Source: a virus. Taken from it: 41,220 nt of DNA. The position numbers were made by a program, and so were the translations under genes. Below are positions 556-41,220 of the stretch, one piece after another. The DNA lies in the IMG/VR virus record IMGVR_UViG_3300050821_007466, positions 1-41,220 of that record; one strand, 5' to 3'. Numbering within the stretch: the first letter of the stretch is position 1; each line of letters opens with the position of its first letter. The notes under the pieces are model-generated. The model searched no databases. It had not been told where the DNA came from and was given only the letters and a program-made list of their open reading frames with translations.

Positions 556-635
556 ACGCTTATTTTAGGAAAGGCTGCAAGTTAAAATAGTTTGACTTTC
601 CGCGAACCGTTTCCTATCGTTGCGCGGGAATTCAA

Positions 636-905
636 TTGACATCCTCCTCTCCCTTAAGGAAGAGGATTCCTACGGCGTTCTGCAGGTTTTGCAGGATCGC
701 TTCGGTAGGTACTTTCGACCCGTCTGAAGTTATTCAGACCTTTCGCCAGGCACTCATGTCGAGAGTATTGCCTGTGGGAACTTGCTTTACGAAATCGCGA
801 TATCCTCGCGCATCGACACAACTATAGTATAGAAAATGGAGGAATTATGGACTACAGAAAAAGGCACGCAAACCCCGCCCTGAAGGACGGAGTTTGCGCG
901 TGTCC
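636..905 (-). mobile_element. IS200/IS605-family remnant without tnpA/tnpB (PATE/MITE-like)
   Basis: Read on the minus strand, the stretch ends in a hairpin (646-665; arms CCTCT/AGAGG and CCTT/AAGG) followed by GGAGGATGTCAA. This is the familiar right-end pattern of IS200/IS605 elements, in which GTAGGAATCC precedes a palindrome and GTCAA closes it. At the other side lies a second hairpin (863-899) with the CCCCGCCCTGAAGGACGG core seen at ends of such elements. The GC content is clearly higher than in the flanking phage DNA. No tnpA or tnpB frame is present in the roughly 270 bp. The exact boundaries are inferred. Confidence 0.55.
637..832 (-). ncRNA. Candidate omega-RNA-like structured RNA (reRNA remnant)
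   Basis: TnpB guide RNAs are made from the 3' part and right end of IS200/IS605 elements, ending at the right-end hairpin with the guide just beyond. Here the minus strand shows only that part. It has several self-complementary blocks, such as GGTCTGAATAACTTCAGACGG (paired GTCTGA/TTCAGAC, about 719-738) and a CCTGCAAAACCTGCAG repeat (683-698). It ends with the right-end hairpin and GTCAA. A TATACT-like -10 box lies just upstream on the minus strand (about 827-832). Expression is not shown, and with no tnpB here it would have to act with a host TnpB or be inert. Confidence 0.4.
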
Positions 906-921
906 ATTGGATTACAGATGA
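847..921 (+). CDS. Short ORF (24 aa) coupled to rusA, runs through the IS-like hairpin
   Basis: An excellent Shine-Dalgarno site (GGAGG, 838-842) lies before the ATG at 847. The frame ends with TGA at 919-921, overlapping the rusA ATG at 918 as ATGA. Most of the peptide is a translation of the 863-899 hairpin (NPALKDGV). The near-repeat GGACTACAGA (849-858) and GGATTACAGA (909-918) brackets the hairpin. This suggests that the original rusA start region was split by an insertion and that the short frame now feeds ribosomes to rusA. Its product may have no function. Confidence 0.4.
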   Translation: MDYRKRHANPALKDGVCACPLDYR

Positions 922-10136: not shown

Positions 10137-12248
10137 TTGTCGTTTTATTACCCACCTTGGAACAATGCGTTAGAACCTAACCAGGGAAATATTCGCCAGT
10201 GGTTAGATAATTTATACTCTAAATTTCAGCCAATCGAACAAAGTCGTTGGAACCAAAGCAACATTGATACACTTTTCTATGCAGGTTCACAAACGTTCGT
10301 CAATCGCTATTTCAATTTCTCTCCAACTACTTCTTATCAACAATATTACTTTAATCTCATACAACAGCCCGTAAACATGATTACAGGCTACGAAAGACAG
10401 CACCGTAAAAACTTCTCCTACGTCCCATGTGAAGGCGCAGACCCAGGCACTACAGATCAATACACGAAGTTGATAACGCATGTTGCTAATCGTGGATGTA
10501 TACACGAGCAGAAGAGCAAAGCCAAAGAGTTAGCAGCTGTGGCTGGAATGTGCCTTATGCAGCCCTATCTTGATTACACCGGAGATGACGCAGCACAAGG
10601 GGAATTAAAAGTAAAAATATGGGAATATAATGCATTTCTCGTCGATCCCTACTTCCGCAGTCCAGACATGTCTGATGCACAATTTGTCTGGTGTCAAGAG
10701 TATATTAGCAAGAAAGAGGCAGAATCTCGTTTTCCCGACAAACTGGAATCAATTGCGCCTATGGCAGGTACTCCGCAAAGATACGGAAGCTTCTATTTCC
10801 TCCCAGAAAATTACAATATGGCAAGAAATGACCTCATGGTGCTTTCGTATGTCTGGTATCGCTGGAAACGGAAAAAACGGCGTTTATATAGTCGTACTCG
10901 TAATCAATTTTTTGATTTTGCCGGTGATGAAGGCAATTTGGAAGCAATCTTATACAACATCCCCGACATGGAAGAGGTAACCGTTGAAACACCCACTTGG
11001 AAACTTGCCGTTGTCCTTAACGATCAGCTCATGTTTCAGGGGGATAATCCACTCGGCTTTGATAACTGTCCTTTTATACCCTATTTCTGGAACTATGAGC
11101 CCCACATCAACTATTATGATTTGCGTGTGCGGAGTCTTGTGCGCACTATGCGGGATCCTCAGTTTCTTTATAATTACAAGATTATTGTTAATAATGACAT
11201 TGCAGCAGCGACAATCAATGCGGGATGGAAGCGAAAAGTCGGAGCGGTAGCCAACGAAGACAATCTAAAGAAATCTGGCCAGGGCTGGGATGTACTCATC
11301 AATGATGGCTATGAGATGACAGACGTTGAGAAGATCATTCCAAGTGCTGTGCCCGAGTCCGATTTAGCTCTTGCTCAACAAATGGGAGATCTTATATGGG
11401 CAACTTCTGGTGTTAATATAGAGAATTGGGCAGGTCAACAAGATAAGCAGATCAGTAGTCTCACAATGCTTCTGAAACAGGCTGCTAATCTCATGGTATT
11501 GCAGAAATATTATGATCAGTGGGACTTCTCGGACAAACTTTTAGGAGATAGATTATTGCAAGTGGCGCTTAACAATTGGAATGCTGAGAAAGTTAAGCTT
11601 TATATAGGCGAAGAGCCTTCTCCGTATTTCTATAGCAAGATTTTCAGCAAGTTTCAGACCATAGTTGAAGAGAGTGACCTAACCCCAACTCAGCAGAACT
11701 TGCAAGCGCAACAGATGATGGACATGAATCAAGCTTTTGGCCGTGAAGTTTTCCCTCCATCGATGATCATTCCTAAGCTTAATGTCACTGGCAAAGGGGA
11801 GATTATTCCGTATTTACAACAGCAAGAGCAACAAATGCAGGCTGCTCAGTCTGAGGAAATGAACCTTAAGCATACAGTCGAGGAGATGAAGCTTAAAGAG
11901 CTCATGGCTAAGATCCATAATCAGCTTTCTCAAGCACGCGAGCGTGATTCTAGAAGTGCATCCAATGTAGGGTTATTTGAAGAGCGGGTTAGCGAAATAT
12001 CTAAGAATCATGCATTGGCCACAAAAGAAAAAATGGAAGCATTAACAAAACTTTTAGAGGCAATACAGAAGTTTGGCGAAGTGGAGACCTTCTTACAGGC
12101 TAATAATCTTCAATCCATCAAGTATGACGAGGAGGAGATCGAAAAAGAATCTCGTGCTAGTATAGAGAAAAACGAAGCATCAAAAAGATTTATTGAACAA
12201 ATAATGGGAAGTCAACAACAATCGGGCCAAATGGCTCAAATGAGGTAA
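10137..12248 (+). CDS. Portal protein, P22-like
   Basis: The portal is the dodecameric ring at the head vertex through which DNA passes. The sequence has the features of the P22-type podovirus portal: a large size (about 703 aa), the early pair FNLIQQPVNMITGYERQ, KELAAVAGMCLMQPYLDY, and a long helical Gln- and Glu-rich barrel region at the C terminus (about 590-700). I choose TTG 10137 because GGAGG (10128-10132) lies four bases before it. The longer frame from TTG 10098 starts inside a promoter and has no ribosome site. No ATG start exists near the N terminus. Confidence 0.85.
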   Translation: MSFYYPPWNNALEPNQGNIRQWLDNLYSKFQPIEQSRWNQSNIDTLFYAGSQTFVNRYFNFSPTTSYQQYYFNLIQQPVNMITGYERQHRKNFSYVPCEGADPGTTDQYTKLITHVANRGCIHEQKSKAKELAAVAGMCLMQPYLDYTGDDAAQGELKVKIWEYNAFLVDPYFRSPDMSDAQFVWCQEYISKKEAESRFPDKLESIAPMAGTPQRYGSFYFLPENYNMARNDLMVLSYVWYRWKRKKRRLYSRTRNQFFDFAGDEGNLEAILYNIPDMEEVTVETPTWKLAVVLNDQLMFQGDNPLGFDNCPFIPYFWNYEPHINYYDLRVRSLVRTMRDPQFLYNYKIIVNNDIAAATINAGWKRKVGAVANEDNLKKSGQGWDVLINDGYEMTDVEKIIPSAVPESDLALAQQMGDLIWATSGVNIENWAGQQDKQISSLTMLLKQAANLMVLQKYYDQWDFSDKLLGDRLLQVALNNWNAEKVKLYIGEEPSPYFYSKIFSKFQTIVEESDLTPTQQNLQAQQMMDMNQAFGREVFPPSMIIPKLNVTGKGEIIPYLQQQEQQMQAAQSEEMNLKHTVEEMKLKELMAKIHNQLSQARERDSRSASNVGLFEERVSEISKNHALATKEKMEALTKLLEAIQKFGEVETFLQANNLQSIKYDEEEIEKESRASIEKNEASKRFIEQIMGSQQQSGQMAQMR

Positions 12249-17145: not shown

Positions 17146-17541
17146 ATGTCAATTACGACAACAGGCAATTTAGGGCCAATGATTCTGCAAAGTTTGGCTC
17201 CTGCTATGCTGTATGTGCCTACTCCCACGATGAATTACATTACCGTGTGCGATAAGGTTAGCATGCCAGCAAACGGCGGGACTACCTGTAGATTTATGCG
17301 CCCAAGAGCTTTACAGCCTCCAACTGTTCAGTTAGGTAATAGTGGTATCGATCCTCCGGCTCAAGTGCCTCAGAGGGATATCATAGACGCGCAAATGGCG
17401 TTTTTCGGTACTGGCTGTATTATAAACGAGCAGGTGATACTCCAGGATCAAGAGGGTTATGATGCCCTCTTAGCTGCGGCGTAATAGGTCTTGGCATGGG
17501 TAAGCGAAAGGCTTGCTGTTGCCATGCGCCAAGCCGAGGAT
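17146..17541 (+). CDS. Major capsid protein (N4-gp56 family), exon 1
   Basis: The N4-gp56 coat family has an HK97-like fold. Exon 1 shows its expected start: MILQSLAPAML, MPANGGTTCRFMRPRAL, then a GTGCIINEQVILQDQEGY strand. After LLAAA the frame meets TAA and TAG (17482-17487), then continues in the same frame as SERLAVAMRQAED, which is the family's next helix. Exon 1 ends at GAT (17539-17541), before the group I intron. Removing 24 nt around the stops would give a normal helix (ALLAAAERLAVAMRQAED). How the stops are passed is unknown. Confidence 0.85.
17482..17533 (+). other. Tandem in-frame stops and strong hairpin inside the coat coding sequence
   Basis: TAA TAG at 17482-17487 interrupts the coat frame. 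Right after, CTTGGCATGG (17490-17499) pairs with CCATG and CCAAG (17522-17526, 17529-17533). GTAAGC (17500-17505) pairs with GCTTGC (17511-17516). The left arm lies in what looks like extra sequence of about 24-27 nt, and the right arm in conserved coat codons. A stop followed at once by a hairpin is reminiscent of the T4 gene 60 bypass site. Sequencing or assembly error and a defective allele are the plain alternatives. Confidence 0.6.
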
Positions 17542-17899
17542 AGAGATTATGTCCTCGATAAATCTTCTCTGATAGACTTGGAACTCCTCGCCGCATAAAC
17601 GGACGGACAACAAGGGGCAAGATATGGAAAATGAAAAGTTAGGGCAAGTAGAAAAAATCGGAGATTACTACTATGTGAACTCCAATTTCAATCTTAAAGA
17701 ACCAATAAGATCATATCAGCCTGAACGAAGCAAGCGAGAAGACGTGGAAAAATATGGTGGTCCTTCTCATCAACCAGATGAAGGATGGCCATCAAAAAAT
17801 AGATTTCCATGATGCGGTGCTCTGAACCCTATGGAGACATAGGGAGGCCAGCTGAGAAGATTTGGCCCGCCTAGAAATAGGTCAAAAAGTAACAGATTG
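17542..17899 (+). ncRNA. Group I intron in the major capsid gene
   Basis: The exon end GAGGAT (17536-17541) pairs with the intron's GTCCTC (17551-17556), giving a six-pair P1 with the obligatory U-G at the splice site. The intron's GATTA (17545-17549) pairs with exon 2 TAATC (17901-17905), a P10. The intron ends in G (17899). Joining GAT to CTA restores the coat frame and gives RQAEDLILRDYI as the family requires. Near the 3' end are an S-element-like AAGATTTGGCCC (about 17857-17868), a CCTA-GAAA-TAGG hairpin fitting P9 (17870-17881) and CCCTATG-GAGA-CATAGGG (17828-17845). I could not settle P3, P7 and P8. Confidence 0.8.
17624..17812 (+). CDS. Intron-encoded small ORF (62 aa)
   Basis: The ATG at 17624 has an AAGGGG site 7 nt upstream, and the frame ends at TGA 17810-17812, before the 3' part of the ribozyme core. 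The product is hydrophilic (YYYVNSNFNLKEPIRSYQPE) and shows no LAGLIDADG, GIY-YIG or HNH motif, so it is not a recognisable homing nuclease. It may be a remnant of one, an unrelated small protein, or a chance frame. Confidence 0.5.
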   Translation: MENEKLGQVEKIGDYYYVNSNFNLKEPIRSYQPERSKREDVEKYGGPSHQPDEGWPSKNRFP

Positions 17900-18523
17900 C
17901 TAATCCTCCGCGACTACATTATTTCCGCCGCTTCGGACATTAACGCAGGTGGTGGAGGTAACGGTTTCAACCCAACTAACCTTGGATTGACCGACTTTAG
18001 TTTAGTAGCTACTACACTTGATACAAATAACGCTTATAAATTCATGAGCGGTATTGAGGGTATGGACAGATTCGGGACAGGTCCAGTCCGTTCAGCATAT
18101 TTTATGCTGTCCTCGACTGAGCTACAGTCCGACTTTGATCAATTGGGAGCTTCGGGTGGGATTTCCTTTATCTCACAGTGGAATTATCCAACCAATGCCT
18201 CAGCTTTGCCAAGTGAATATGGCTCTGTAGCCAATATTAGGATTTTGACAAGCTCTGAGGCTCCAGTAGCTAGAAATGCCGTGGCTAATGCTTTAGGCGT
18301 GCTTAACGACCTGTATTACAATACAGTGCTCGGCAAGCAGGCTATCACGCATATTAATCAGGATGGTTATTCCATGAACCTGATTTATCGTGATCCTTAC
18401 TATTCTGGAATGCTCGCGCAAAACGCTACTTTGGCGGTTAAATTCGCCCAAGCTCAAGCGATTACGCAAGATACCGCTATCCGCAACGTCTTAAGCACAC
18501 GCTTAAGCAACCTGGGGGTGTAG
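17900..18523 (+). CDS. Major capsid protein (N4-gp56 family), exon 2
   Basis: After splicing, codons begin at CTA 17900: LILRDYIISAASDINAGGGGNG. This is followed by family-typical segments YKFMSGIEGMDRFGTGPVR (substrate-like loop), FISQWNYPTNASALPSEYGSV, ANIRILTSSEAP and the C-terminal GMLAQNATLAVKFAQAQAITQD. It adds 207 residues, so the whole coat is about 330 residues, normal for the family. There is no ribosome site for independent translation at TTG 17897, which supports splicing. Confidence 0.9.
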   Translation, partial: LILRDYIISAASDINAGGGGNGFNPTNLGLTDFSLVATTLDTNNAYKFMSGIEGMDRFGTGPVRSAYFMLSSTELQSDFDQLGASGGISFISQWNYPTNASALPSEYGSVANIRILTSSEAPVARNAVANALGVLNDLYYNTVLGKQAITHINQDGYSMNLIYRDPYYSGMLAQNATLAVKFAQAQAITQDTAIRNVLSTRLSNLGV

Positions 18524-30749: not shown

Positions 30750-32948
30750 ATGTCAGGTTTAGCATATGGCTTAGGTGGTTTCATAAACGTTCCTCCTCCT
30801 GTTTTGAGTGGCAATGGACCTCCTGCAACAGGATTTAAAGGGGCTCTAGGCCAATCCTATTTTGATAATTCACAAACTCCACCTGTAGAATATGTCTATA
30901 ACGGACAATCATGGTCAACCGCTGGAGCCAATCAAGCCACTACAACTACTCCTGGAACAGTAACATTAAGTACCTTAGCTCAACTTGAAGCCGGATCGGC
31001 TCCAGCAGGCGCTGTCGTACCTTTAGCAAATGATGTGTTTACTTTCGTTAATAGTGTGGCAATAGCAGGAGCAACAGTTGCCACCACGGCAGCAGCAGGG
31101 ATTGTTTTTCTTGAAACAGATGCTAATGCTGTTCTAGGAACCGCTCCGAATCCAAATACAGCCTTGCAGCCAAGCAATTTGGCTGCTGTTTTTGCAGCGC
31201 CTCCAGTTGGTGGATTTGGAAGTACAACTCCTAGACCTGTAGCAGCGACAACATTGAATGCTTCTGGCTTAGCAGCTTTTGCAGGAAATGCCACAGTGGG
31301 CGGAACGCTTGGAGTTACTGGAGCTTCTACAATAGCTTCTTTGAGCGCAACTACAGGTACATTTAGTTCAACCTTAGGCGTGACAGGGGCTACTACATTA
31401 GCAACTTTGAGTGCTACATCGGGCACATTCAGCACAACACTAGGTGTAACAGGGGCCTCCACTCTATCCTCTCTTTCTGCTACATCGGGCACATTCAGCA
31501 CAACACTAGGTGTAACAGGGGCCTCTACATTTAGCTCAGGTACATTTAGTACCACATTAGGCGTTACGGGTCTTACTTCCCTATCAACACTTGCTGTTTC
31601 TTCTACTTCAACCTTTATGGGATTGGCTACTTTTAACGGTGGTGCAACTACAGCAGGTACTTTAACAACGGGAGCCTTAACCGTTATAGGAACCACCTTA
31701 ATTAATAACTCTGGTGGTGCAGCAACAACGATCGGCGGCGCATCTGCTGGAGCGATTGGAATCCAAGTAGGCTCCGCAGGCAACTTTAGTATGACTACAG
31801 CTACGGCTGGTGCTACAATGTCTTTTGGATCTGCTGCTCAAACAGGCCAAATTACATTAGGTGATTCAACAGCTGGGCAAATTGTGAGCATCCAAAGTGC
31901 TGCAAGCATAGCAGGAAATAACAGGGTAGATATTCTTTCTGGCGCTACACCAGCTGCGAATCAGACACTTAATATTATGACTGGCATCGGAACTGCTGGG
32001 ACATATGCCGTTAATATACTCACCGGGAATTCTACTGGCACAACTCAAACTATTTTAGCTGGCACAGGATCTGCAAGAACAGATATTACGCTGGGAGGAA
32101 CAGGAGCAAACGTTATCCAAATTGGAAATACTCAATTAGCCGGATCATTTTCTGTTGGTAACCTGATGACAACAGGAACTATAGCTCTTGGCGGAACTGC
32201 CATGACAGGATCTATAACAATAGGCCAAGCAACAAATGCAACAGGACAAACCGTTAGCGTTTTGAGTGGAACATCAATAGCAGGCCCTAACGTTCTTAAT
32301 TTGCTTTCAGGTGCGACACCAGCTGCGAATCAAACAGTAAATATTATGGCTGGAATAGGCACTGCTGGCACATATACTTTAAACGTTTTGTCAGGGGCTT
32401 CAACTGGATCAACACAAATTGTTAATTTTGCTACAGGAGCTGCAACGACAGTAAATCTAGGTATTGTTGGCGGTTCATTCGCTGTAAAGTCTCCTACAAC
32501 GATTACACTTGCTTCTGGAGCCGGAATTGGTCTTGCCGTAGATACTTCAGCAGGAACAGGAGTTGCAGCAACATTTAAATCAACAAATGCTACTACAGAT
32601 GCAATTCAACTTATTGCAGGATCTGGCGGTATCAAAACAGCTGTTACCGTGGTTGCTGCCGGAGCAAGTCCACAAACATGTAATAATCGTTTTGGACAAG
32701 TAACGTTTAGCGGTATTAGCATCGCTTCAGGCGGCTCGCAAACATTAACAATAACAAATTCAACAATAACCGGAGCGTCAACTGTAGTGGCAGTTTGGAT
32801 GTCAGGAGCAACAGCGGGTTCAGCTTTGTCAATAGCAAGCATTACTCCTGGCGCTGGTACTGTAGCTGTCATCGTAACCAATGGAACAAGCGCTACCATG
32901 GTTACAAGCGTTGCCAATATAACATTGACATTCTGGGTGATGAACTAA
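30750..32948 (+). CDS. Repetitive tail fibre protein (732 aa)
   Basis: Residues about 190-290 are 19-22-residue repeats of the form L-S-A-T-S-G-T-F-S-T-T-L-G-V-T-G-A-S-T. Later repeats include LLSGATPAANQTVNIMAGIGTAGTY, seen twice about 120 residues apart. Ala, Gly, Ser and Thr dominate, as in beta-helical fibre shafts. The last 100 residues (ASPQTCNNRFGQVTFSG, then NITLTFWVMN) form a compact C-terminal head like those of phage fibres. The N terminus (about 1-60) has YVYNGQSWSTAG typical of attachment parts. Confidence 0.75.
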   Translation: MSGLAYGLGGFINVPPPVLSGNGPPATGFKGALGQSYFDNSQTPPVEYVYNGQSWSTAGANQATTTTPGTVTLSTLAQLEAGSAPAGAVVPLANDVFTFVNSVAIAGATVATTAAAGIVFLETDANAVLGTAPNPNTALQPSNLAAVFAAPPVGGFGSTTPRPVAATTLNASGLAAFAGNATVGGTLGVTGASTIASLSATTGTFSSTLGVTGATTLATLSATSGTFSTTLGVTGASTLSSLSATSGTFSTTLGVTGASTFSSGTFSTTLGVTGLTSLSTLAVSSTSTFMGLATFNGGATTAGTLTTGALTVIGTTLINNSGGAATTIGGASAGAIGIQVGSAGNFSMTTATAGATMSFGSAAQTGQITLGDSTAGQIVSIQSAASIAGNNRVDILSGATPAANQTLNIMTGIGTAGTYAVNILTGNSTGTTQTILAGTGSARTDITLGGTGANVIQIGNTQLAGSFSVGNLMTTGTIALGGTAMTGSITIGQATNATGQTVSVLSGTSIAGPNVLNLLSGATPAANQTVNIMAGIGTAGTYTLNVLSGASTGSTQIVNFATGAATTVNLGIVGGSFAVKSPTTITLASGAGIGLAVDTSAGTGVAATFKSTNATTDAIQLIAGSGGIKTAVTVVAAGASPQTCNNRFGQVTFSGISIASGGSQTLTITNSTITGASTVVAVWMSGATAGSALSIASITPGAGTVAVIVTNGTSATMVTSVANITLTFWVMN
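31413..31525 (+). repeat. Perfect 47-nt direct repeat, 66-nt period, in the fibre gene
   Basis: The stretches 31413-31459 and 31479-31525 are identical for 47 nt and are offset by 66 nt (22 codons). More divergent copies lie on both sides (about 31347 and 31545). Identity at synonymous sites points to recent duplication or recombination. Confidence 0.85.
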
Positions 32949-35190: not shown

Positions 35191-36021
35191 ATGATTTTAG
35201 CAAATTCTCTCGACGCAAGCGCATCAGGTTATCAAAGTCAGACTTCGACTGGAGTTTGGAATGGACGAACTTTTCAAGCTACCGGAGGGATCACATTAAT
35301 AAATCCCGATGGCACTGGAGGAAACACCACTATCGTTGGAGGTGCCGGGAGTCCAAGCGTCAATTCTGTTCTAGATGGTTTCGATGATTTTATCAACGAA
35401 GGAGCTGCGTCAGCATTGACATTCGGTGACACACCATGGGCTCTTGCTAGCGGTGCCACTATTCCCTCAGCTAGTATTATTGTGGCTGGACATCCCGGAA
35501 TTGTTTCTAGTAAAACCACGGGGTATTTTGGACTTTTTAAAGGATATGTCGCAGGGCCTACTGGTACTCTTCAATTGGGTGGAGGTGTTTTGACGGTGAC
35601 ATTTTATTTTCGCATAAACAGCTTAACAACTTATACGGTCTCTATGGGTTTAACAGATGTTCCCGAACCTGGTGCGGATGCAGTTAATGGCGTATATTTG
35701 ATTGGGCAAAACGGCGTTAACTCCGGTAACTGGCAGGGGAAAACTGCAACCGCTAGCACAATAACCACGGCTAATTCATCAACTGCCGTAACGACCGCCT
35801 GGACTGTAGCGCAAATCGTAGTTAATGCCGCTGCCACAAGCGCTTCATTTTACATTGGTACAACATTAGCTAATCTTGCACAGATTGCAAACTCTCCAAT
35901 AAGCACTAATATTCCTACATCAGCAAAATTAGGCATAAACTGGGGCGTTGCAAACGCTGGTAGCGGAACAGTTGACTTAGATCTAGTTACCTGGAACTAC
36001 GCCCTTACAACTGCCCGCTAA
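35191..36021 (+). CDS. Tail fibre protein (276 aa)
   Basis: GAGGAAATC precedes ATG 35191. The N-terminal region has INPDGTGGNTTIVGGAGSP, a variant of the module in the two genes before. The remaining 200 residues look like a beta-sandwich (VTFYFRINSLTTYTVSMGL, FYIGTTLANLAQIAN, LDLVTWNYALT) of carbohydrate-binding type. It is the last gene of the late block. Confidence 0.7.
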   Translation: MILANSLDASASGYQSQTSTGVWNGRTFQATGGITLINPDGTGGNTTIVGGAGSPSVNSVLDGFDDFINEGAASALTFGDTPWALASGATIPSASIIVAGHPGIVSSKTTGYFGLFKGYVAGPTGTLQLGGGVLTVTFYFRINSLTTYTVSMGLTDVPEPGADAVNGVYLIGQNGVNSGNWQGKTATASTITTANSSTAVTTAWTVAQIVVNAAATSASFYIGTTLANLAQIANSPISTNIPTSAKLGINWGVANAGSGTVDLDLVTWNYALTTAR

Positions 36022-36022
36022 A

Positions 36023-36041
36023 ATGTAAATCCGCTTTACAT
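36023..36041. repeat. 19-bp palindrome, copy 3 (inverted orientation)
   Basis: The plus strand reads ATGTAAATCCGCTTTACAT, the reverse of the copies at 20818 and 26294. It lies exactly between the end of the late plus-strand block (36021) and the end of the minus-strand recombination operon (36045). Confidence 0.8.
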
Positions 36042-36044
36042 CGC

Positions 36045-36356
36045 TTATTTGTATTTAGATGGGCAATTAGGATTTTGACACGGCGTTCCTATTGGCCAGT
36101 GGCTATTACAGTATGGGCAACGCCATTTCTTTTCATAAGCGCCTTCGTGAGATTTCACGATATCACTTTCGTAAATGTAAAAACCCCTGGGCTCGCTATG
36201 GATTACATTGCTTTGAATCCATATGTTTTCGCCTTCGTGGATATGAAAAGTCTCATCTGCATAGCTTAAATCATCTATATCAATGTAGATCTTTTCTGAA
36301 GCAATACCTAAAGACACAAAAAATAGGCTTAATAAAACACAAAGTAAAGTTCTCAT
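36045..36356 (-). CDS. Secreted zinc-ribbon-like protein (103 aa)
   Basis: Residues 1-19 (MRTLLCVLLSLFFVSLGIA) are a signal peptide with a likely cleavage after SLGIA. The mature part has a beta-rich domain (EKIYIDIDDLSYADETFHIHEG) and a C-terminal CPYC...CQNPNC metal knuckle. An exported protein at the end of an early recombination operon is unexpected; it may modify the envelope. No family name can be given. Confidence 0.65.
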   Translation of the reverse strand: MRTLLCVLLSLFFVSLGIASEKIYIDIDDLSYADETFHIHEGENIWIQSNVIHSEPRGFYIYESDIVKSHEGAYEKKWRCPYCNSHWPIGTPCQNPNCPSKYK

Positions 36357-36619
36357 TTATTTTCCTGGGTTGGTTTAATAATTTCATCTTGTTCTTTTAG
36401 TTTATCATGCTGTTCTTTAAGATTCGCATACCCTTCTTTCATATTTTTAAGCAGAATAGAAAAAGCATCTACGCTCATGTGAGCACAAACAAATAATAGC
36501 ATTAAATTTTCACCTAGAGCGTTTCCTATATCTTTAGTAGAATATTCTTTATTGATACAATGATTTATAACAGTTTTTATTTTAAGGGAAGCGTCTTCTC
36601 GATTTCTTGAAACTGTCAT
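36353..36619 (-). CDS. Hypothetical protein (88 aa)
   Basis: It is helical, with a coiled-coil C terminus (NLKEQHDKLKEQDEII). It overlaps genes on both sides by a few bases within the recombination operon. No family recognised. Confidence 0.6.
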   Translation of the reverse strand: MTVSRNREDASLKIKTVINHCINKEYSTKDIGNALGENLMLLFVCAHMSVDAFSILLKNMKEGYANLKEQHDKLKEQDEIIKPTQENK

Positions 36620-36846
36620 TTTTTCCTTTTAATCATCAGTTCTCTAATTTTAGCCATTTCCTCTTTAAGATCTATGATCATCTTGAAAAGCTCGGCCTGG
36701 ACGTCTTCCATCTTCTTATGTCTAGCGAATAGGCCTCTTTGGACATTACCGAATTTATCTTCGAGATGGCCGAGACGAAGTTCCATTTGGGAAAAATCGT
36801 CATGGTCTTCGAATAGATCAGTTTGGCGTGGCAGAAACATAATCAT
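36616..36846 (-). CDS. Coiled-coil protein (76 aa)
   Basis: Residues about 20-75 form a charged coiled coil (MELRLGHLEDKFGNVQ, KKMEDVQAELFKMIIDLKEEMAK) with a lysine tail. ATG 36846 overlaps the upstream stop. Unknown function. Confidence 0.6.
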   Translation of the reverse strand: MIMFLPRQTDLFEDHDDFSQMELRLGHLEDKFGNVQRGLFARHKKMEDVQAELFKMIIDLKEEMAKIRELMIKRKK

Positions 36847-41060: not shown

Positions 41061-41220
41061 ATGACCCATAGCGAAATAAAATCGCACAAACGTGAAAAGA
41101 GCCAGCCAAAGACTTCGCGCGATCCTGGGGCAAATGAAGGGCCTTGGTTTGGAATCTCTCAGGTTATCGTTTCTGATAGAGCGCCCACAATATTTGATGA
41201 CTTTGAGTCGCAATACTGGA
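41061..41220 (+). CDS. Hypothetical protein, 5' part of the gene crossing the circular join
   Basis: ATG 41061 lies 2 nt after the initiator stop. The frame is open to the end of the window and continues from base 1 (or equally through the repeated 98 bases) to TAA at 166, giving 75 residues. The first 20 residues are basic and polar. Function unknown. Confidence 0.65.
   Translation, partial: MTHSEIKSHKREKSQPKTSRDPGANEGPWFGISQVIVSDRAPTIFDDFESQYW
41123..41220. repeat. Terminal direct repeat, right copy
   Basis: Identical to bases 1-98. See the left copy. Confidence 0.95.

Follow-up and report, generated by a model that had tools for sequence, protein, structure and literature searches.

The DNA examined here (the window, 41,220 bp) is the IMG/VR virus record IMGVR_UViG_3300050821_007466, a phage whose genes include those for a RusA-like resolvase, terminase, portal protein and replication protein. 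Since a 98-bp direct repeat is common to both ends (1–98 and 41123–41220), the record probably represents a complete genome; its IMG/VR class is linear. On the minus strand of 636–910 lies a 275-bp element of the IS200/IS605 type without a protein gene, whose predicted product resembles the omega-RNA, i.e., the guide RNA of the TnpB nuclease. An initial annotation, made from the letters alone, had described the minus strand of 640–830 as the last part of such an element, consisting of paired blocks, GTAGGAATCC, a palindrome and GGAGGATGTCAA. All of these are present: GTAGGAATCC (673–664) precedes the right-end hairpin, and GGAGGATGTCAA forms the 3' end, terminating at 636; the -10-like box, which had been noted upstream, was found as well. 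The kinship was recognised correctly and the extent was drawn too short, since the element has a left-end hairpin of its own and reaches to 910, which makes it complete from left end (LE) to right end (RE). Folding and a hairpin scan yielded subterminal hairpins at both ends, as is characteristic of IS200/IS605 elements; compared with shuffled sequences, the minus strand gave z = -3.6 when 620–830 was folded as RNA and z = -5.1 when 600–930 was folded as DNA. With a length too short for a transposase (270–289 bp across the family copies), IS605-like near-terminal palindromes, and neither terminal inverted repeats nor target duplication, the element corresponds to the description of palindrome-associated transposable elements (PATEs). 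Coordinates are compiled in Table 1.

Table 1. Features of the element and its borders in the window (TAM, transposon-associated motif; R1, covariance model described in the text).
Feature	Position	Strand	Basis
Complete non-autonomous IS200/IS605-type (PATE-like) element, 275 bp	636..910	-	comparison of relatives and joined flanks; family border from the empty site of G001 c4
Omega-RNA-like scaffold, predicted, 9 helices including pseudoknot	636..819	-	R1 match and covariation
Part homologous to tnpB-linked omega-RNAs (R1 positions 1-146)	636..768	-	R1, 79.2 bits, E = 8.6e-23
Segment of 40 nt, identical in all full-length family copies	776..815	-	alignment
Right-end hairpin	645..666	-	RNA folding and covariation analysis
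Left-end hairpin, 16-bp stem, loop of 4, then T-rich stretch, terminator-like	865..900	-	near-identical in all copies
-10-like box TATACT, directly upstream of conserved RNA	826..831	-	alignment; counterparts in relatives CATAAT, TATAAT, AACATA
Target/TAM position, TGTAAT	911..916	-	TTGAT in six other copies (four G001, G003, G006)
Flank at guide position, TTGAATTCCCGCGCAACGAT	616..635	-	position inferred from ISDra2 reRNA (PMC8612924)

Kinship with TnpB guide RNAs was assessed with a covariance model, as the initial annotation had proposed. The model R1 was built from 13 omega-RNAs located downstream of tnpB, without any member of the window family; RNAalifold gave 32 pairs for these 13 RNAs, of which 21 were changed on both sides. 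R1 matched the window element (Table 1) and also every full-length copy of its family; a large share of the score came from the RE motif, while the middle region and the helices aligned too. In a blastn search against plasmids, the last 50 nt of the element matched elements of K. pneumoniae, Salmonella and Arsenophonus, where the matches coincided exactly with the 3' ends of genes annotated as TnpB, and the motif GTAGGAATCC-N6-30-GGAGGATGTCAA occurs in 111 viral stretches, in many cases directly 3' of a TnpB frame. The ends are thus related to those of IS200/IS605 elements; a lack of such similarity had been named beforehand as one result that would count against the proposal. Together with the compensatory changes described below, the R1 homology agrees with the suggestion that a tnpB-less element may encode a stand-alone omega-RNA. 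None of the Rfam gathering cut-offs was reached by the window element; weak matches were obtained with HgcC (RF00062; 627–742, minus strand, E 0.0033) and sot0042 (RF02656), and a relative designated G006 exceeded the cut-off of HPnc0580 (RF02269) with 41.4 vs 37 bits. Unlike these three RNAs, the window element has a 5' half which is family-specific. R1 also matched 25 of 25 other viral loci with the right end and without TnpB seen upstream, loci which had been picked by their right-end motif. A cellular guide-only candidate was noticed on the Janthinobacterium lividum plasmid NZ_CP139977.1 (stretch L012, 2429–2569; R1 72.5 bits, no TnpB annotated).

The window family (A-type) has copies in three or more further phage lineages, whose portal proteins are recognisably related; the portal proteins of the carriers show 68, 61, 28 and 25% identity to that of the window. 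One A-type copy, with 85% identity, is found in 3300042090_001080 and 3300014169_000033, two records of one phage. The 41-kb phage 3300049215_000467 (G001) contains four copies, one of them divided over the contig ends, and A-type sequence occurs also in 3300047172_000189, which is the same phage. A copy with 71% identity is located in 3300032053_000625 (G003), and a B-type relative with the same left end in 3300036790_000182. The copies sit in unrelated genomic contexts. Copy c4 of G001 disrupts a DNA-methyltransferase-like gene after TTGAT; in 3300036790_000182 an empty allele was found, where TTGAT is followed by GAGATATTCC, compared with TTGAT, element and GAGGTATTCC at the occupied site. 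With longer flanks, the intact gene continues after TTGAT with GAGATATTCCATGAGTTTAAGAGGC, and the disrupted one, after the element, with GAGGTATTCCATGAGTTTTAGGGGC. This allele shows that the family inserts exactly 3' of TTGAT and without target duplication, following the rule of ISDra2. Open frames returned upon joining of the flanks at three further insertions (c1, c2 and G006). TTGAT precedes six copies (four in G001, those of G003 and G006), and ATGAT precedes the copy designated G004. For the window's own site no empty allele was found, relatives of the RusA neighbour giving two weak matches only. Judged by its copies and their joints, the family is recently mobile, and therefore the term remnant, used in the initial annotation, undersells the element. 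The alternative offered there, a miniature inverted-repeat element or PATE moved in trans, fits the copies at multiple sites, the empty TTGAT site without duplication and the Y1 and TnpB domains which were not detected.

Some further details of the copies were noted. In the G001 copy without right-end hairpin (31475–31717; L154) a terminator-like hairpin stands in its place, and the counterpart in 3300047172_000189 (11083–11227; L155) has an additional internal deletion between short repeats GCGATTT. A cluster of imperfect repeats is present at 35921–36624 of G001 (L161/L162).

Neither the Y1 transposase TnpA (PF01797) nor the TnpB zinc ribbon (PF07282) was detected in the window or in any of the six carrier records, with positive controls; the search consisted of these two profiles, which a strongly divergent protein could escape, and some of the carrier records are fragments. 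The statement that the phage lacks tnpB was in this sense borne out, and no TnpB match was obtained upstream of the right end of the window element. Since PF01797 is absent, the element would be non-autonomous. A linked tnpB gene, which belongs to the features of omega-RNAs, was thus detected neither in the window nor in the carriers, and the nuclease-dead TnpB-like protein, which lies beside the guide RNA in TldR systems, was not detected in the window phage.

One alternative explanation is a plain PATE, i.e., a parasite at the DNA level, which uses a host TnpA in trans, carries the scaffold as a roleless leftover of a parental tnpB 3' end and owes the likeness of its copies to recent descent. 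PATEs derived from IS605 by core deletion are already known (PMC3119063), the mobility of the family is evident from copies, empty allele and joined flanks, and TnpB was not detected in the carriers. The conservation of the RNA argues against this explanation. A nine-helix fold accounted for 98.4% of cells as paired in four distinct A-type sequences. Changes on both sides were found at 10 pairs, compared with a mean of 2.9 in shuffles (0 of 500), and when the fold partners were slid by 1–3 columns, at most one such pair was left. In the G003 copy (71% identity) the arms of helix 3 are changed from CAGGC/GCCUG to UAAGC/GCUUA and those of the pseudoknot from GUCG/CGAC to GCCG/CGGC. The pseudoknot, in which (A/G)UGUCG at the 5' end pairs with CGACAU within the second domain, would be unnecessary for recognition of the ends by TnpA. 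Furthermore, 815–776, far from the ends, is unchanged even in G003, whereas the DNA from the left-end hairpin to the RNA start diverges. We regard a plain PATE as rather unlikely.

Coding on the opposite strand was also considered, since an open reading frame (ORF) of 63 amino acids is open on the plus strand of the window (636–827); a regulatory RNA of the phage without relation to TnpB could account for the conservation in a similar manner. The ORF is broken by stops or frameshifts in the copies of G001, G004 and G003 and was rejected as a coding explanation; a coding region conserved in relatives, which had been named as a second counter-argument to the proposal, is thus not present. Homology to tnpB-linked omega-RNAs and the unrelated genomic contexts of the copies speak against either variant, which we consider extremely improbable. 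Covariation, the invariance of 40 nt and the loss of the ORF, taken together, indicate selection on the RNA and not on the transposon ends alone; as far as can be read from the sample, which is small, the omega-RNA scaffold of the window family is under selection.

Long exact core patterns gave no match in viral contigs, and relaxed patterns then recovered the family; the invariant 23-mer GATGCGCGAGGATATCGCGATTT was scanned in viral contigs only. Neither an exact core pattern nor a pattern for the left end detected a family copy in GTDB representative genomes, and none of the six matches of the latter contained a recognisable element. Likewise, 369 genomes of Gammaproteobacteria yielded no family copy and matches of 20–44 nt only. 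Within the limits of these scans, A-type copies have been seen in phages alone. In a comparison with named phages, made with regard to the host, the portal protein of the window showed 20–23% identity to those of Pseudomonas, Serratia and Burkholderia phages, and its capsid protein gave no match. The restriction to viral contigs among the scans made, a conserved scaffold, the absence of a nuclease gene and the high copy number in one phage would suit a decoy or inhibitor RNA, whose scaffold keeps TnpB of the host, or a different Cas12-like protein, occupied and thereby shields the phage genome. Such an RNA would need neither jumping nor full transposon ends with an exact border at the guide position, all of which are retained, and the 5'-TTGAT context of most copies fits active targeting; the decoy appears to us quite improbable.

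As for the guide, the initial annotation had placed it in the flank at 619–635 (minus strand); by analogy with the reRNA (the right-end element RNA) of ISDra2, whose last ~16 nt are derived from flanking DNA (PMC8612924), the guide-equivalent should extend from 635 to about 616. Among the loci compared, a convincing TAM-flanked target was seen only for c4 of G001, other guide matches being at chance level. The first 14 bases of the c4 guide match the related empty allele with one mismatch, and the TAM is present; during co-infection, such a guide would therefore encounter targets of the kind represented by this empty allele.

Mobility, absence of proteins and a conserved RNA together suggest a non-autonomous PATE-like element with a selected full omega-RNA, and not a dead remnant. 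We think it probable, with some reserve, that it is a mobile IS200/IS605 element of phages, whose sole product is an omega-RNA and which, parasitic on host proteins, uses this RNA as a trans-acting guide for homing or retention. The element would depend, probably, on proteins of the host cell. In the course of replication, TnpA of the host or of a co-resident element could excise and insert it in single-stranded form; the RNA would be read from its own promoter across the border of the element, so that the flank becomes the guide. A host TnpB, loaded with this RNA, could then cut empty sites flanked by TTGAT in sister genomes that have lost the element by excision or are present through co-infection, and repair of the break would restore or copy the element.

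Several points weigh against this interpretation. The covariation derives from four distinct sequences only. The window copy is preceded by TGTAAT instead of the family target TTGAT, so that cleavage may fail at the donor joint of this copy. Not all copies are intact: c3 of G001 is without the right-end hairpin, and the 3' scaffold of the G003 copy is degenerate. The promoter sign on the minus strand is the -10-like box, a sigma-70 scan of the element having given no full promoter, and transcription is deduced from the sequence. Finally, the searches yielded no partner TnpA or TnpB, nor a host.

A more far-reaching proposal, which we put forward as tentative, is that the family constitutes a phage-specific lineage of mobile elements reduced to a guide RNA, which home between co-infecting phage genomes with a host TnpB in trans, the pseudoknotted 5' domain adapting the RNA to stand-alone expression. 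Under the interpretation favoured here, the element would provide a natural case of a guide RNA of a TnpB system selected without its nuclease, within phages. Action of omega-RNAs in trans, spreading of elements between phages by RNA-guided homing and the serving host TnpA and TnpB would become accessible to tests. Since R1 matched all of the other tnpB-less viral loci mentioned above, elements of this guide-only kind may be widespread among phages.

Apart from the element, the probable major-capsid gene of the window (17146–18523) was found to be interrupted; the homologue in 3300032053_000625 is intact, and the capsid gene of 3300049215_000467 contains several similar insertions. A 358-nt group-I-like intron is located at 17542–17899, where pairing is possible between exon GAGGAT^ and GTCCTC, and the last base of the insert is G; Rfam gave no match for this insert at E <= 1. 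A second insert of 30 nt (17458–17487) contains in-frame stops, GAGGGT^TATGATGCCCTC...TAATAG^GTC, and exact removal of both inserts restores the full capsid frame of 332 amino acids. In a related phage a 46-nt insert of the same look is present at a different site (L161, 4427–4472). The 30-nt and 46-nt inserts share exon-insert pairing, a U before and a G at the end, and resemble P1-only mini-introns or translational bypass.

Among known systems, the PATEs of Haloquadratum walsbyi (PMC3119063) are similarly short, transposase-less and multicopy, with IS605-like near-terminal palindromes; lack of target duplication and, probably, movement in trans are also shared. Those PATEs are archaeal, cellular and defined by their ends only, whereas the window family belongs to phages and has retained the complete omega-RNA scaffold, which covaries and is extended on its 5' side by a pseudoknotted part. 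With ISDra2 the family has in common TTGAT as insertion target and TAM (PMC8612924); ISDra2, however, carries tnpA as well as tnpB, whose 3' end is overlapped by the reRNA, while the window element has no protein gene. The TldR repressors of temperate phages (PMC13418256) are likewise phage-borne relatives of the TnpB guide-RNA system, but TldR is a phage-encoded protein, and no TnpB-like protein was detected in the window phage. For plasmids, a proposal exists that TnpB drives the homing of insertion sequences (PMC11870625); in the window family the nuclease would act in trans. A direct statement on an omega-RNA-only element of phages was not found in the open-access papers searched, an absence which is no proof of novelty. 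By sequence and predicted structure, the window family is a guide-only element, confined to phages in the scans made and provided with a 5' pseudoknot domain of its own, which combines the features of PATEs with those of omega-RNAs, except for the linkage to tnpB.
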